DNA from: a virus
DNA length: 36,334 nucleotides
Direction: 5' to 3' (one strand)
Virus record (IMG/VR): IMGVR_UViG_3300009684_000080
Span: 1 to 36,334 of that record
The notes under the pieces are model-generated. The model had not been told where the DNA came from, searched no databases, and saw only the letters and a program-made list of their open reading frames with translations. Shown in pieces: positions 16,635 to 24,983 of this stretch (positions are counted from its first letter, which is position 1; every line of letters begins with the position of its first letter). The position numbers and the translations under genes were made by a program.

Positions 16635-16837
16635 AAATCTCCTTCACATTCAGTTGCTGTTTCTTGTGCTTTCATTATGGATTCGGCAACGGATCGCGCT
16701 GTTTCTAAAGTCACTAACGAATAGTCACTATCTGGAAAATGCTGTCCGTTAAGACGTATGATCCACATATTGCTTTTTACGTTAATGGGTTCGTCTGATC
16801 CATTGGGGTCGTCGTATAGTTCTAAGGTAATGTTCAT
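16631..16837 (-). CDS. Small paralogous protein, copy 2 (68 aa)
   Basis: This 68-residue protein (MNITLELYDDPNGSD, MWIIRLNGQHFP, SLVTLETARSVAESIM) is the partner of the gene at 16443-16634. The two arose by tandem duplication. It overlaps the RNA ligase stop by ATGA and lies directly downstream of that gene. No enzymatic motif; a small alpha/beta fold is likely. Confidence 0.62.
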   Translation of the reverse strand: MNITLELYDDPNGSDEPINVKSNMWIIRLNGQHFPDSDYSLVTLETARSVAESIMKAQETATECEGDL

Positions 16838-17496
16838 AGTTGTCCTTTCGGTTTATCATCATCTTTAATTGTCATCTTAAAGCCAACGCCAGCAGCTTTG
16901 TGATACACTACAATGCCTTCTGGATTCATGAATCCCTTTGCCGCTACGCTTCCATTAACTCTGAGATGATCTAGTTCAAATTCTGCATCAAATGTAGTAA
17001 ACAGCTCTTCCCAAAGTACAGGAACTACTTTGCAGCAAGCTGGCGCGTGTTCTTGGAACAACGGTGGTGCTTTTGGATTATCGCTGGAGATAGAAGCTGT
17101 TGGCTTATCGTGTTCGACCCAACGGGTAGCATTGAAAAGCGAGAAGAACCGCTCGCCGTTTTTGAAGCCGTAGCCGCGTTGGATACCGCTGCCCCACCAC
17201 TCTCCGAAGTGATGGCCTTCGCCTAATTTGAATAGCTCGTTTGAGTTTTCGAAAACCCATTTAGCGAAGTCGAAGTTGTCGTTAGCGGTAGTAATCCAGC
17301 GAGTGCGGGAGCCAGCCCACATACCTAAAGCGGTTCCGTCTTTCTTGAAGAGTGTGGCGACAGACTGATTGGGCGTTTTTAGATCAGTCGGCCCAATGTA
17401 AATGCTGGCATTCGTGCCGTCGATTTTTTCAGTAATGATGCACTCGCGTCGAAGGCGAGCCATTTTCGGGAATGGTTTGAATTCTAGTGTGTTCAT
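16834..17496 (-). CDS. RNA ligase (nucleotidyltransferase superfamily)
   Basis: This 220-residue protein has the covalent-nucleotidyltransferase motifs. Motif I is TEKIDGTNAS with the AMP-accepting Lys at about residue 24; a motif III-like HFGEWWGSG and RFFSLFN follow; motif IV is EGIVVYH and motif V FKMTIKDD. It fits RNA-ligase-domain proteins in phages, which seal RNA breaks such as cleaved host tRNA. No polynucleotide kinase is found in the window. The start MNTLEFKPFP at 17496 is chosen; the in-frame extension upstream to 17637 has no support. Confidence 0.82.
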   Translation of the reverse strand: MNTLEFKPFPKMARLRRECIITEKIDGTNASIYIGPTDLKTPNQSVATLFKKDGTALGMWAGSRTRWITTANDNFDFAKWVFENSNELFKLGEGHHFGEWWGSGIQRGYGFKNGERFFSLFNATRWVEHDKPTASISSDNPKAPPLFQEHAPACCKVVPVLWEELFTTFDAEFELDHLRVNGSVAAKGFMNPEGIVVYHKAAGVGFKMTIKDDDKPKGQL

Positions 17497-17691
17497 AGTT
17501 TTAGTAGAGTGGCGGCCCGTTGACTTTCTGCCATTTTGGAGGAGCATGGAACCTTTACATTGTGGGACGGGCCACGCCCACAACAGCACCAGATTTTTTT
17601 GTTTCACAAATTGGTCAGCGAGCATGGTTAGCGACATGCGTTTCCCAGTTTATCGGTCTGGGTGGATTCGATCATCCTATCGCTGAAGGTA
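17497..17691 (-). other. Gap with a possibly frame-shifted small gene
   Basis: About 195 bp lie between the zinc-ribbon gene (17692) and the RNA ligase. No intact gene is convincing. A frame containing CCCGRGPSHNVKVPCSSKMA runs to an ATGA overlap with the ligase start, yet has no start codon. A single-base shift at the A7 run (T7 on the plus strand, 17594-17600) would join it to an upstream ATG reading MLADQFVKQ. It may be a broken gene, a recoding site or an assembly error. Confidence 0.35.
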
Positions 17692-22455: not shown

Positions 22456-22770
22456 TTAGTTGAATTCTGCAATCATTTCTGGTTTTTCGTAGATGTCAAT
22501 CCCATCAAGTTCAAAAAGATTCTTGTACACTTCAAGTTCACTTTTCGGTTCACGGCGCAAGATGTAAGCGATGGATTCCCCGCTTTCAGTCATGCTTTTA
22601 TAGGCCGATTCCATCATTTCAAGGTGCCATTGCAAGTCCGATTTAGCTTTTTGAAACTTTGTTTCACCATTCTCAGGTTCTGCAATGCTTTCAAGATACG
22701 CCAGCCGTTTACAGTAAAGGTTTTTTTCTCTGAATTTCTTCAAATCTTCAATTTCTCCAGTGAATTTCAT
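22456..22770 (-). CDS. Hypothetical helical protein behind leader element E
   Basis: This 104-residue protein starts MKFTGEIEDLKKFREKNLYC and is almost entirely helical with charged residues. The start at 22770 follows an A-rich stretch and the repeated leader element at 22782-22820; ten extra in-frame residues upstream fall inside that leader and are rejected. Function unknown. Confidence 0.6.
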   Translation of the reverse strand: MKFTGEIEDLKKFREKNLYCKRLAYLESIAEPENGETKFQKAKSDLQWHLEMMESAYKSMTESGESIAYILRREPKSELEVYKNLFELDGIDIYEKPEMIAEFN

Positions 22771-22781
22771 ATTATTTGATT

Positions 22782-22820
22782 TGTTTAAGGTTTGCTGCAA
22801 CTTGGCTGGAAGCTAGGCCA
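22782..22820 (-). repeat. Early leader element, copy E
   Basis: On the coding (minus) strand it reads GGCCTAGCTTCCAGCCAAG then TTGCAGCA, then an A-rich tail to the ATG at 22770. It matches the consensus GCCTAGCTwwCGGCC-n-AGTTGmAGCA of copies B, C and D. UGGC/GCCA can close a small stem. It starts only a few bases after the previous stop and has no obvious promoter. Confidence 0.7.
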
Positions 22821-22825
22821 TAGAA

Positions 22826-23284
22826 TCAGTCAAACCATTTCGCGGCAACTTGCTTTGCTAAGTCTTCATATTTCTCAGACGTGGAGCAATTACGGGCAAA
22901 AAATTTCCCGCGTAACTTCGCATAATGTGCTGTAATGTTTCCGCTAAGGTATTCGCACATCCGGAAAATTTCCACTCCGCGAACATTCTGCCATTTTTCG
23001 GGCGGTAATACTTCCAAGGCACCCCACCATTCATCTTCCGTAATTTCTCGCCAGTCTCCACAATACTCGGATTTTCTAGCCTCTTCCATCATCGGAAAAG
23101 CCTCATCCAATGGCATAATCTGAAATTCAGGGCTTCCGACTTCCCGCCTTTCGTTTAGCTCTCGAAGCATGTTTTCAAACAGTTTGCCCGTATAAGGGCT
23201 TTTAAGCGTTTCACCCTCTTCCGCAAGGCAAGCGGTTTCTATGTGGGTTTTTCCCGGCTGGTAAATACAATGATGTTTTTTCAT
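22826..23284 (-). CDS. Hypothetical protein (152 aa) behind leader element D
   Basis: This 152-residue protein has an N-terminal MKKHHCIYQPGKTHIETACL, and a C-terminal EITEDEWWGALEVLPPEKWQ then FRMCEYLSGNITAHYAK. The WWxxLEVLPPxxW and FRMxEYLSGxITxxYA blocks recall a small family of unknown function from plasmids and phages (possibly DUF1419; from memory). It may be a single alpha/beta domain. Role unknown. Confidence 0.65.
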   Translation of the reverse strand: MKKHHCIYQPGKTHIETACLAEEGETLKSPYTGKLFENMLRELNERREVGSPEFQIMPLDEAFPMMEEARKSEYCGDWREITEDEWWGALEVLPPEKWQNVRGVEIFRMCEYLSGNITAHYAKLRGKFFARNCSTSEKYEDLAKQVAAKWFD

Positions 23285-23300
23285 TTTCTTTATTTTCTTT

Positions 23301-23340
23301 GTTTAATTTAATGCTTCAACTAGGCCGAAAGCTAGGCCTT
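23301..23340 (-). repeat. Early leader element, copy D
   Basis: The minus strand reads AAGGCCTAGCTTTCGGCCTA then GTTGAAGCATTAAATTAAAC. AGGCC and GGCCU can pair over 5 bp around the loop UAGCUUUC. It fills most of the 61-bp gap between the clamp-like gene and the gene starting at 23284, and has no obvious promoter. Confidence 0.75.
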
Positions 23341-23345
23341 GAGAT

Positions 23346-23894
23346 TTAGGACATGCGAATTGGCATAATTACCCCGAAAGCATCATAGCAAGCAGGCTTT
23401 TCCTCATTATGCTTCCCGCTACTTGTTGGAATTACTTTAATTGGTGCTTGGTCAAAATTGCCAGCATCAAATTCAAGAACAACCCCTTTAGTTCCCATCG
23501 CGGAAGCAATAGCAAAAAGCATTTCAGCATTTAGGGCTACCCTCCGCAAGGTTTTTCCTTCTTGGTCGGGGATGACTCGCCTCCAATTCGGAAATTCCCC
23601 AAGGACAATTCTGGGAAAGCTAGAACCATCTTGCAAGTCAATGGTCTCTTCCAAGCATTCTAGGCTAGGTTCTAGGTTTTTCTCTTTCCTGCTTGCTTTC
23701 AAGGCTTGGATTGAGACGTGACCAGAAACATCATTTTTTGACAATTCCACGGGTACAATGACAAGCCCTTGACCATTTGTTGCAATGAGATTCCCCTTGC
23801 CGTTTTCAACTTCCAAAAATGGGGCTGTTATGACATGGCGGGTTTGGTCATTGCTTGCGATTGCTTCAATTTTAATCTTTTTATTTAGTTTCAT
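23346..23894 (-). CDS. Truncated sliding-clamp (DnaN)-like protein
   Basis: This 182-residue protein resembles the beta sliding clamp, but at about half its length. NLIATNGQGLVIVPVEL corresponds to the ATDG..L part of a clamp domain. SFPRIVLGEFPNWRRVIP recalls the FP...W segment. RVALNAEMLFAIASAMG then VVLEFD and the C-terminal FGVIMPIRMS match the last clamp domain (VxINxxxL, ending xxLMPxRL). It could form a ring by multimerising, or bind host polymerase or loader as a decoy. The start at 23894 follows leader element C. Confidence 0.72.
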   Translation of the reverse strand: MKLNKKIKIEAIASNDQTRHVITAPFLEVENGKGNLIATNGQGLVIVPVELSKNDVSGHVSIQALKASRKEKNLEPSLECLEETIDLQDGSSFPRIVLGEFPNWRRVIPDQEGKTLRRVALNAEMLFAIASAMGTKGVVLEFDAGNFDQAPIKVIPTSSGKHNEEKPACYDAFGVIMPIRMS

Positions 23895-23905
23895 CGGTTT
23901 GTTTT

Positions 23906-23955
23906 GTTTAATTTGATGCTGCAACTTGGCCGTTAGCTAGGCGGGAGAATTATTT
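23906..23955 (-). repeat. Early leader element, copy C
   Basis: The minus strand reads TAAATAATTCTCCCGCCTAG, CTAACGGCCAAGTTGCAGCA, then TCAAATTAAAC. Together with the promoter, copies B and C share nearly all bases from AATAAACTTGCAA to the A-rich tail except an 11-bp spacer part. It precedes the clamp-like gene. Confidence 0.8.
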
Positions 23956-23976
23956 ACAAGATAGAATTGTTTGCAA
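23949..23976 (-). promoter_or_regulatory. Early promoter PC for the clamp-like gene
   Basis: The minus strand has TTGCAA (23976-23971), 16 bp, then AATAAT (23954-23949, 5 of 6 matches to TATAAT). Transcription would start about 7 bp downstream, right at the CCCGCCTAGC leader element. An identical arrangement occurs at 24594-24621. Confidence 0.68.
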
Positions 23977-23996
23977 GTTTATTTCAGAGAAACTTT

Positions 23997-24296
23997 TCAG
24001 GCTTTTCCTTCCGCTTTGGCGATAGCTTCCCGAGCGTCACTTGCCGAACGGTTAAAGCTGTCCCGCATCGGTCCCGCCATCAATCCCGCTTTCCTCAGCA
24101 GAAATTCAGCATCTTTCAACGCTGACAGCAATTCGGGAGCGGTAGCAATGACGTTAGCGTGACGCATGGCCGAAATGGTAGGAAAATACGCAATTACATA
24201 ATCACCATTAGCAAGGCATCCTTCCATCTCTTTTCCTTCTGATTCATTGCACTCTGATCGGCTGGCTTTTAGTATTTCCCAATTATTTGATTCCAT
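23997..24296 (-). CDS. Hypothetical phage protein of the 'APELLxALKDA' type
   Basis: This 99-residue protein has YFPTISAMRHANVIATAPEL then LSALKDAEFLLRKAGLM and a final ASDAREAIAKAEGKA. The NAxxIAxAPELLxALK pattern ending in AIAKAEG occurs in a great many phage proteins of unknown function. The start at 24296 (MESNNWEILK) is chosen; the longer frame from 24341 overlaps the upstream gene. A short piece of the leader motif (ACATCAAACTAATCAAA) stands before it. Confidence 0.7.
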   Translation of the reverse strand: MESNNWEILKASRSECNESEGKEMEGCLANGDYVIAYFPTISAMRHANVIATAPELLSALKDAEFLLRKAGLMAGPMRDSFNRSASDAREAIAKAEGKA

Positions 24297-24316
24297 TTTT
24301 TTGATTAGTTTGATGT

Positions 24317-24535
24317 TTAGAAATTCCCGCCATAAAAACATTCATCGAACTTTGCAGCATCGAAATCACGGCTTTCTTGCTTTCCGCATTCATTCTTGCC
24401 GCATGATACGGACTTGGCCGATGGATTGTAAAATACTTGTTCACCCCGCTTAACCTTGCCTTTGCAACAAGCGCAAGTTGAATCGAACTTAGCATAAATC
24501 CACTTAGGGTCATTGGAATAATAGTTACTTTTCAT
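24317..24535 (-). CDS. Small zinc-finger protein (72 aa) behind leader element B
   Basis: This 72-residue protein starts MKSNYYSNDPKWIYAKFDST and contains CACCKGKVKRGEQVFY then CGKNECGKQ, giving two Cys pairs for a likely zinc site. It has its own promoter and leader (element B). The fold may be like treble-clef fingers. Role unknown; its own promoter suggests an early host-interaction protein. Confidence 0.65.
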   Translation of the reverse strand: MKSNYYSNDPKWIYAKFDSTCACCKGKVKRGEQVFYNPSAKSVSCGKNECGKQESRDFDAAKFDECFYGGNF

Positions 24536-24550
24536 GTTCCTTTTTTCTTT

Positions 24551-24600
24551 GTTTAGTTTGATGCTTCAACTGAGCCGAAAGCTAGGCGGGAGAATTATTT
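24551..24600 (-). repeat. Early leader element, copy B
   Basis: The minus strand reads AAATAATTCTCCCGCCTAGC, TTTCGGCTCAGTTGAAGCAT, then CAAACTAAAC. It is the closest relative of copy C and shares GCCTAGCTTTCGG with copy D. It precedes the zinc-finger gene. Confidence 0.8.
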
Positions 24601-24621
24601 ACAGGGCTGGATGAGTTGCAA
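24594..24621 (-). promoter_or_regulatory. Early promoter PB for the zinc-finger gene
   Basis: The minus strand has TTGCAA (24621-24616), 16 bp, then AATAAT (24599-24594). Upstream AATAAAC is also shared with promoter PC. It overlaps the 3' end of the preceding gene, as expected for an internal early promoter. Confidence 0.68.
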
Positions 24622-24623
24622 GT

Positions 24624-24897
24624 TTATTTTATGCTGAAATCAACTTTCTTTAAGATTGCTTCATTTTCTTTGGCGTAATCGTTGGCAAAATCAAAATCAA
24701 CTTCAGTGCCTAAATAATTTCCATTTTTATCAGTTAGGATATATTTAACAGGCTTTTCTGGTAATTCTGGCAACAATTCGACAAGATGAGATTTTCCAGC
24801 CATTCTCCGACCACTGTTTATTTTAGCAAGTTTGGATCTTGTCATTTTAGCTTGCAAATATTCATTAACTCTCAATTCCCATTCTTTTCTTGTCATT
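24624..24897 (-). CDS. First early gene: small basic protein (90 aa)
   Basis: This 90-residue protein starts MTRKEWELRVNEYLQAKMTR and ends ENEAILKKVDFSIK, with KYILTDKNGNYLGTEVDFDF as a beta hairpin. It is the gene nearest the control region on the leftward side and so probably the first expressed. The start at 24897 is chosen because the promoter at 24955-24983 lies inside the longer frame that begins at 24995. Host-takeover roles are typical at this place, but no function can be read. Confidence 0.62.
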
Positions 24898-24904
24898 GTC
24901 TTTG

Positions 24905-24951
24905 TTTGGTTTTGTTTGGTTTGATTGTTGGCTTTGCTCCGGCCAACTGCA
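24905..24951 (-). repeat. Early leader element, divergent copy A
   Basis: The minus strand reads TTGCAGTTGGCCGGAGCAAA, then GCCAACAATCAAACCAAAC. Here GTTGGC pairs with GCCAAC (6 bp). The stem sequence differs from copies B-E but the layout is the same: promoter, GC-rich hairpin, ATCAAAC and an A/C-rich run to the ATG. Confidence 0.55.
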
Positions 24952-24954
24952 ATC

Positions 24955-24983
24955 AAGATAAAGCAAGTATTCGGGCTTGGCAA
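24955..24983 (-). promoter_or_regulatory. Early promoter PA, start of the leftward arm
   Basis: The minus strand has TTGCCA (24983-24978), 17 bp, then TATCTT (24960-24955). It is weaker than PB and PC by consensus but placed in the same way before a leader hairpin and the first early gene. An AT-rich tract lies upstream (about 24,990-25,080). Confidence 0.55.

Follow-up and report, generated by a model that had tools for sequence, protein, structure and literature searches.

The early genes of the podovirus-like phage held in IMG/VR as record IMGVR_UViG_3300009684_000080 (36,334 bases, analysed at full length and hereafter called the window) are preceded by copies of a short ordered element of about 27 nucleotides (nt). 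This element is a real, widespread and previously undescribed recurrent family of cis-acting RNAs in phages. Comparison of its sequences gave good support to action at the RNA level. As to its role, we tentatively favour, with a confidence that falls somewhat short of even, a cis-acting intercistronic leader that would define and insulate the 5' region of the cistron after it, probably by serving in processing or as a 5'-end element.

The pattern GCCTAGCTNNCNGCCNAGTTGNAGCA, allowing up to 3 mismatches, matched exactly four places in the window, all on the minus strand (copies B to E, Table 1), and none in 100 dinucleotide shuffles of the window. An earlier note made from the window alone had assigned one common element to five early genes, which held for these four but not for copy A, where the covariance model of the family (model R1, see below) gave no match even at E≤1. 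Copy A is a separate hairpin outside the element family, with a predicted stem GUUGGC/GCCAAC; it adjoins the putative operon promoter, and sister phages keep it at that same place as GTTGAGCGAARCAAAGC. The block ATCAAAyTAAACAAA in front of the start codon, which the note had counted as part of the element, varied between copies (AAACCTTAAACAAA in copy E); it is part of an A/C-rich linker. The fragment noted before the gene at 24296 proved to be of the linker type alone in the window; a relative (L012) has the full element before the same gene. Copies D and E start 6-7 nt past a stop codon. Copies B and C have about 45 nt in common upstream of the element (TTGCAA...TAAATAATTCT; window 24543-24629 and 23898-23984, minus strand), judged from its sequence possibly a promoter; the block recurs in contig L099 before its copy at 1622 and is missing from D and E.

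To recover the family, IMG/VR viral contigs were scanned with the pattern and candidates were filtered by stem complementarity. True copies mostly had 4-5 stem pairs and an A-rich leader; many single-copy matches, mostly with 0-3 stem pairs and lacking leader-like surroundings, were discarded as coincidences in coding sequence. Model R1, which was made from 34 sequences and run over whole records and fetched loci, separated the two classes in one scan (29-51 bits for true copies, at most 17 bits for every other match). Its 58 matches corresponded to 53 distinct places on more than 20 phage contigs, from two unrelated lineages: the podovirus-like group I of the window (L006/L099, L007, L012, L015) and group II (L026, L028, L038, L052, L089-L097, L184 and others), which has N4-type ATPase and VWA genes and up to 7 copies per contig. 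Conserved group II genes matched ATPases of N4-like and other phages. The element was found in none of the cultured phages in the collection scanned, and 78 loci with Erf genes added no copies beyond the group I contig already known. Bacterial genomes searched with one exact group II pattern gave no match, the GGCC-stem type lying outside that search, and no relative turned up when, to look for a host, bacterial genomes were scanned for the group II ATPase. Compared with Rfam 15 up to E 5, the element matched no family in the window, L007, L088, L089, L092, L095 and L097, and 11 loci gave no match at the gathering threshold. No earlier description of the motif was found in the open-access subset of the literature.

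From 5' to 3', the consensus comprised a stem of 4 base pairs (bp; NGCN/N'GCN'), an 8-nt loop YAGCUUNC and then NAGNUGNAGCR, the conserved 3' single strand being NAGNUGNAGC. Eight residues (A9, G10, C11, U12, G22, A27, G28 and C29) were invariant among 46 distinct sequences. In the same set the basal pair was UA in 25, GC in 11, CG in 2, GU in 1 and unpaired in 7, the top pair was GC in 34, CG in 11 and unpaired in 1, and the middle pairs were almost invariant. The stems fell into four classes (TGCG/CGCA, GGCC/GGCC, GGCG/CGCC and CGCG/CGCG). None of 500 shuffles reached the observed covariation score, and the structure scored far above its slid versions. Since the pair counts are of sequences and not of independent events, the RNA stem is regarded as well supported rather than proven. 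The partly compensatory stems described from the window were weak within it and confirmed in relatives, where the covariance search that the earlier note had itself proposed as a check found compensatory stem changes around a conserved loop. The loop GCU could pair with the 3' AGC in 46 of 46 sequences, so that a compact pseudoknot may close the element; this pairing never varies and says nothing either way. Pairing of the loop UAGCU with AGUUG was discarded, as the variants AGAUG and AGUCG break it.

Position was tied to the start codon of the following gene. All 53 copies lay on the same strand as the next open reading frame (ORF), and the distance from AGC to ATG had a median of 28 nt (interquartile range 24-31, 53 places). 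The distance from the upstream stop codon to the stem was looser (median 13 nt, range 0-128). Linkers between element and ATG averaged 60% A, 22% C, 13% T and 5% G over all copies. In L007 (4744-4788), an extra hairpin CCCGCCTATTTAATTTAGGCGG stands between element and ATG and gives an unusual spacing of 73 nt. Shine-Dalgarno (SD) sequences were not enriched before the ORFs of the window (7% vs 10% expected) or of group II (1% vs 7%), compared with 45% vs 10% expected for control phages in the same test. A was the commonest base near -3 and -6, and near -12/-13 in group I. In Flavobacterium johnsoniae, a member of the Bacteroidetes, a phylum without SD sequences, A at -3 promotes initiation (PMC6847099). 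From the ORFs without SD enrichment and the preference for A at -3, the hosts of these phages are probably of the non-SD type.

In close relatives of the window, hammerhead ribozymes were found at homologous junctions. A search covering types I-III, which required the full core (CUGANGA and GAAA), closed helices and an NUH cleavage site, detected three complete-core hammerheads (one type I and two type II; Table 1), and none in the window, in group II or in shuffled sequence; 757 kb of other Erf-phage loci yielded one further hammerhead, outside the window's group. Minimum-free-energy folds gave the canonical three-way junction for all three, and Rfam backed two of them below the gathering threshold (HH9, E 0.015; Hammerhead_II, E 0.011). 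Their sites matched those of the element: directly after the upstream ORF, about 17-45 nt before ATG and with the same A-rich linker. For two genes that carry the element in one phage, a homologue in another is led by a hammerhead instead. In the haloviruses HF1 and HF2, a hammerhead variant lies 13 nt before an early gene, and a mapped transcript 5' end falls within three nucleotides of the cleavage site (PMC3088659).

On the leader reading, the element, sitting between cistrons of the early operon, usually soon past the upstream stop and some 28 nt ahead of the following ATG, would prevent base pairing between the preceding coding sequence and the A/C-rich region of initiation. It would probably also serve as a processing or 5'-end signal, the job that hammerheads would do in sister phages, and so separate or trim the messages of neighbouring genes. 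That RNA is cut at the element, and that element and hammerhead have equal function, we infer from the hammerhead analogy. The earlier proposal of a translation-control or mRNA-stability element agreed with the covariation, the narrow distance to ATG and the lack of an Rfam match; the hammerhead substitution was not visible from the window. The swap of element and hammerhead before related genes offers a natural comparison, which makes the long-open role of phage hammerheads testable and points to the way in which phages of non-SD hosts may start independent translation of shuffled early genes. A bolder version, which we consider doubtful, holds that the element is a new minimal self-cleaving RNA or a nuclease signal of about 27 nt that swaps with hammerheads and splits early polycistronic mRNAs in non-SD hosts. 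Several observations weigh against the leader reading. An inert insulator would not require so high a conservation of loop and 3' strand, and this hints at a particular partner or activity; covariation is limited to two or three pairs and lies mostly between lineages; the single-strand folding energies of the window leaders were no better than those of shuffles; and the hammerhead interchange could be cassette shuffling without equal function.

Several known systems resemble the element in part. Synthetic insulators of the RiboJ type use a ribozyme or hairpin to standardise the 5' leader of the downstream gene; RiboJ is engineered, whereas the element is natural, is no hammerhead and has an insulating role that is a conjecture. 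Phage hammerheads (HHphage of HF1/HF2 and the intergenic one of PaP3; PMC3088659) are likewise short structured intercistronic RNAs shortly before an early-gene start, but the element itself has neither the hammerhead core nor the three-way junction, and its cleavage is presumed. Among the translational regulators of phage T4 (gp32, acting on a pseudoknot with unstructured leader, gp43, acting on a hairpin, and RegA; PMC3014915), the gene 32 and gene 43 operators share the layout of a compact structure followed by an unstructured leader to an early-gene start. Unlike them, the element is repeated before many unrelated genes, and its pseudoknot is a possibility. T4 RegB cuts early mRNAs in intergenic regions where translation starts, and A-rich sequence lies 3' of the cut (PMC3014915), a layout like that of the element; RegB recognises GGAG in SD sequences, whereas GGAG is not conserved in the element and SD sequences are not enriched in its phages. 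The manA and wcaG leaders of cyanophages (PMC2864571), also structured RNAs in potential phage 5' untranslated regions recognised by comparative genomics, are larger and tied to metabolic genes, and the element has no sequence or Rfam match to them.

The strongest rival, which we nevertheless think unlikely, is a translational operator, in which a phage or host RNA-binding protein would read the loop and 3' strand and repress or activate an early-gene regulon. It owes this rank to the conservation of loop and tail, which exceeds what would be required of an inert insulator. One element common to several early genes, with loop and 3' strand conserved and stem variable, is what such a regulon would display, and the fixed distance to ATG in 53 of 53 copies (median 28 nt), over an unstructured linker, is the leader position of an operator, as in the T4 gene 32 and gene 43 layouts (PMC3014915). 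Yet hammerheads, which a specific protein would not bind, replace the element before homologous genes, the Pfam and PHROGs searches recognised no candidate RNA-binding regulator among the genes scanned, and the element is common to two phage lineages with different gene sets. The same interchange would suit a new minimal self-cleaving ribozyme, improbable in our estimate, whose conserved loop and 3' strand would form a catalytic pseudoknot cutting mRNA between cistrons. The eight invariant non-stem residues in 46 sequences, among them the potentially pairing GCU and AGC, also speak for it. Against it, about 27 nt with one supported 4-bp helix would be unusually small, below the size of the known self-cleaving ribozyme classes, the pseudoknot pairing never varies and no conserved helix flanks the element.

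In relatives, the element stays and the genes on both sides change. After the 182-aa (amino acid) gene, the element is found in the window, L007 and L015, and the gene beyond it is another one in each; after the DUF1419 gene it is found in the window and L007, where the genes beyond it differ too. This shuffling of junctions fits recombination, the phage having an Erf annealase, and would be a consequence rather than the function of the element. It also speaks for a DNA site of some kind (a promoter, an operator or a site of recombination) that is copied along with every cassette, as does the promoter-like upstream sequence of about 45 nt common to copies B and C; we rate this as quite improbable. 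The idea of an operator copied with inserted genes, raised in the earlier note, was right about the shuffled genes, but an RNA is favoured over a DNA operator because the stem covaries, the loop is conserved and the strand is fixed. Compensatory changes with a conserved loop, a single orientation in 53 of 53 copies and a spacing tied to ATG all disagree with a DNA element, as do copies D and E, which, 6-7 nt past a stop codon, leave no room for a separate promoter. A search with PF00940 (T7-type phage RNA polymerase) gave no response, its controls being equally silent. An integron attC-like cassette site, assessed by eye, was rejected, since it would need a GTTRRRY box and an inverse partner, and the sequence does not agree with these.

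A transcription terminator or antiterminator between early genes would explain the intercistronic position, and a palindrome does precede some group II copies. This is very improbable, as the 4-bp stem is followed by the conserved AGNUGNAGC and the A/C-rich linker (13% T) with no U-tract, the spacing tracks the start codon and not the stop codon, and the palindrome also occurs within ORFs without the element. The least probable explanation is a riboswitch for a metabolite in early infection. The compact conserved loop, possible pseudoknot and A-rich tail give it a superficial likeness to small riboswitches, but Rfam gave no match for the window or several relatives up to E 5, and the downstream genes share no pathway. 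A preQ1-like riboswitch, suggested by the UAGCU loop and A-rich tail, was set aside, with no match to an Rfam aptamer.

The head and portal proteins of the window phage are 54-56% identical to those of phage C75C1, and Pseudomonas phages have more distant relatives of the major head protein of the window phage. The minus-strand early genes span about 24.9 kb down to 12.1 kb, among them those for Erf annealase, exonuclease, a DnaC-like loader, resolvase and an RNA ligase; the element copies sit in the promoter-proximal, accessory part of this operon. The 182-aa gene has a distant likeness to phage processivity-factor and resolvase families (phrog_3007, phrog_947). The RNA ligase family gene (window 16834-17637, minus strand; phrog_548, E 2.8e-26) may be of interest given the RNA cleavage expected in sister phages.

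Table 1. Features of the window and of related contigs; positions are those of the window unless a contig is named.
Feature	Position	Strand	Evidence or remark
Putative early operon promoter, TTG-N20-TATCTTG	24954..24983	-	Equal spacing in L007 and L015 (TTG-N20-TACCTTG)
Hairpin A, before first early gene (24896); different leader	24921..24956	-	Fold; no model R1 match; kept in L007, L012, L015, L088
Element copy B, before 72-aa gene (start 24535)	24562..24588	-	Pattern, 1 mismatch; model R1 40 bits
Linker, element B to ATG (A-rich)	24536..24561	-	Sequence
72-aa gene, element B in front	24317..24535	-	93% identity to L007 3387-3602, where hammerhead leads
Linker-type tail without element, before gene 24296	24297..24317	-	Sequence; L012 homologue has full element
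Element copy C, before 182-aa gene (start 23894)	23917..23943	-	Exact pattern; model R1 37.2 bits
Linker, element C to ATG (A-rich)	23895..23916	-	Sequence
182-aa gene, element C in front	23346..23894	-	phrog_3007 E 9.5e-10, phrog_947 E 9e-4
Element copy D, before 152-aa DUF1419 gene (start 23284)	23312..23339	-	Exact pattern; model R1 47.1 bits
Linker, element D to ATG (A-rich)	23285..23311	-	Sequence
DUF1419 gene, 152 aa, element D in front	22826..23284	-	Pfam PF07215 E 3e-6
Element copy E, before 104-aa gene (start 22770)	22793..22820	-	Exact pattern; model R1 38.6 bits
Linker, element E to ATG (A-rich)	22771..22792	-	Sequence
104-aa gene, element E in front	22456..22770	-	ORF and relatives
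Type I hammerhead	L007 3301-3341	+	Precedes homologue (93% identity) of the element-B gene of the window
Type II hammerhead	L012 3688-3742	+	Homologues of next gene in L015 and L099 (46-56% identity) carry element
Type II hammerhead	L088 2123-2177	-	Same sequence in L006, L099; leads another early gene; overlaps upstream stop codon
Second hairpin family	L038 6226; L052 1482, 7365; L090 5634; L091 1182, 3301 (-); L093 219, 6102 (-)		
Palindrome AGTCAAGACNGTCTTGACT, examples	L026 5799, 6283, 6483, 7710		

Some group II junctions carried a second hairpin family, found at 8 places, all before ORFs and 23-38 nt from ATG. Its 6-bp stems were variable (AGGAGG/CCUCCU, UGCAAG/CUUGCA, GGGAGG/CCUCCC and GCAGGG/CCCUGC) around a loop UCCRACC that resembles a tRNA T-loop. 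Its presence supports a general rule for these phages, by which a compact RNA structure stands before early cistrons at a fixed spacing from the start codon. The palindrome AGTCAAGACNGTCTTGACT recurred every few hundred bases in L026, L052, L028 and L089-L093, also within ORFs, a distribution that recalls the dispersed repressor sites of some phages.

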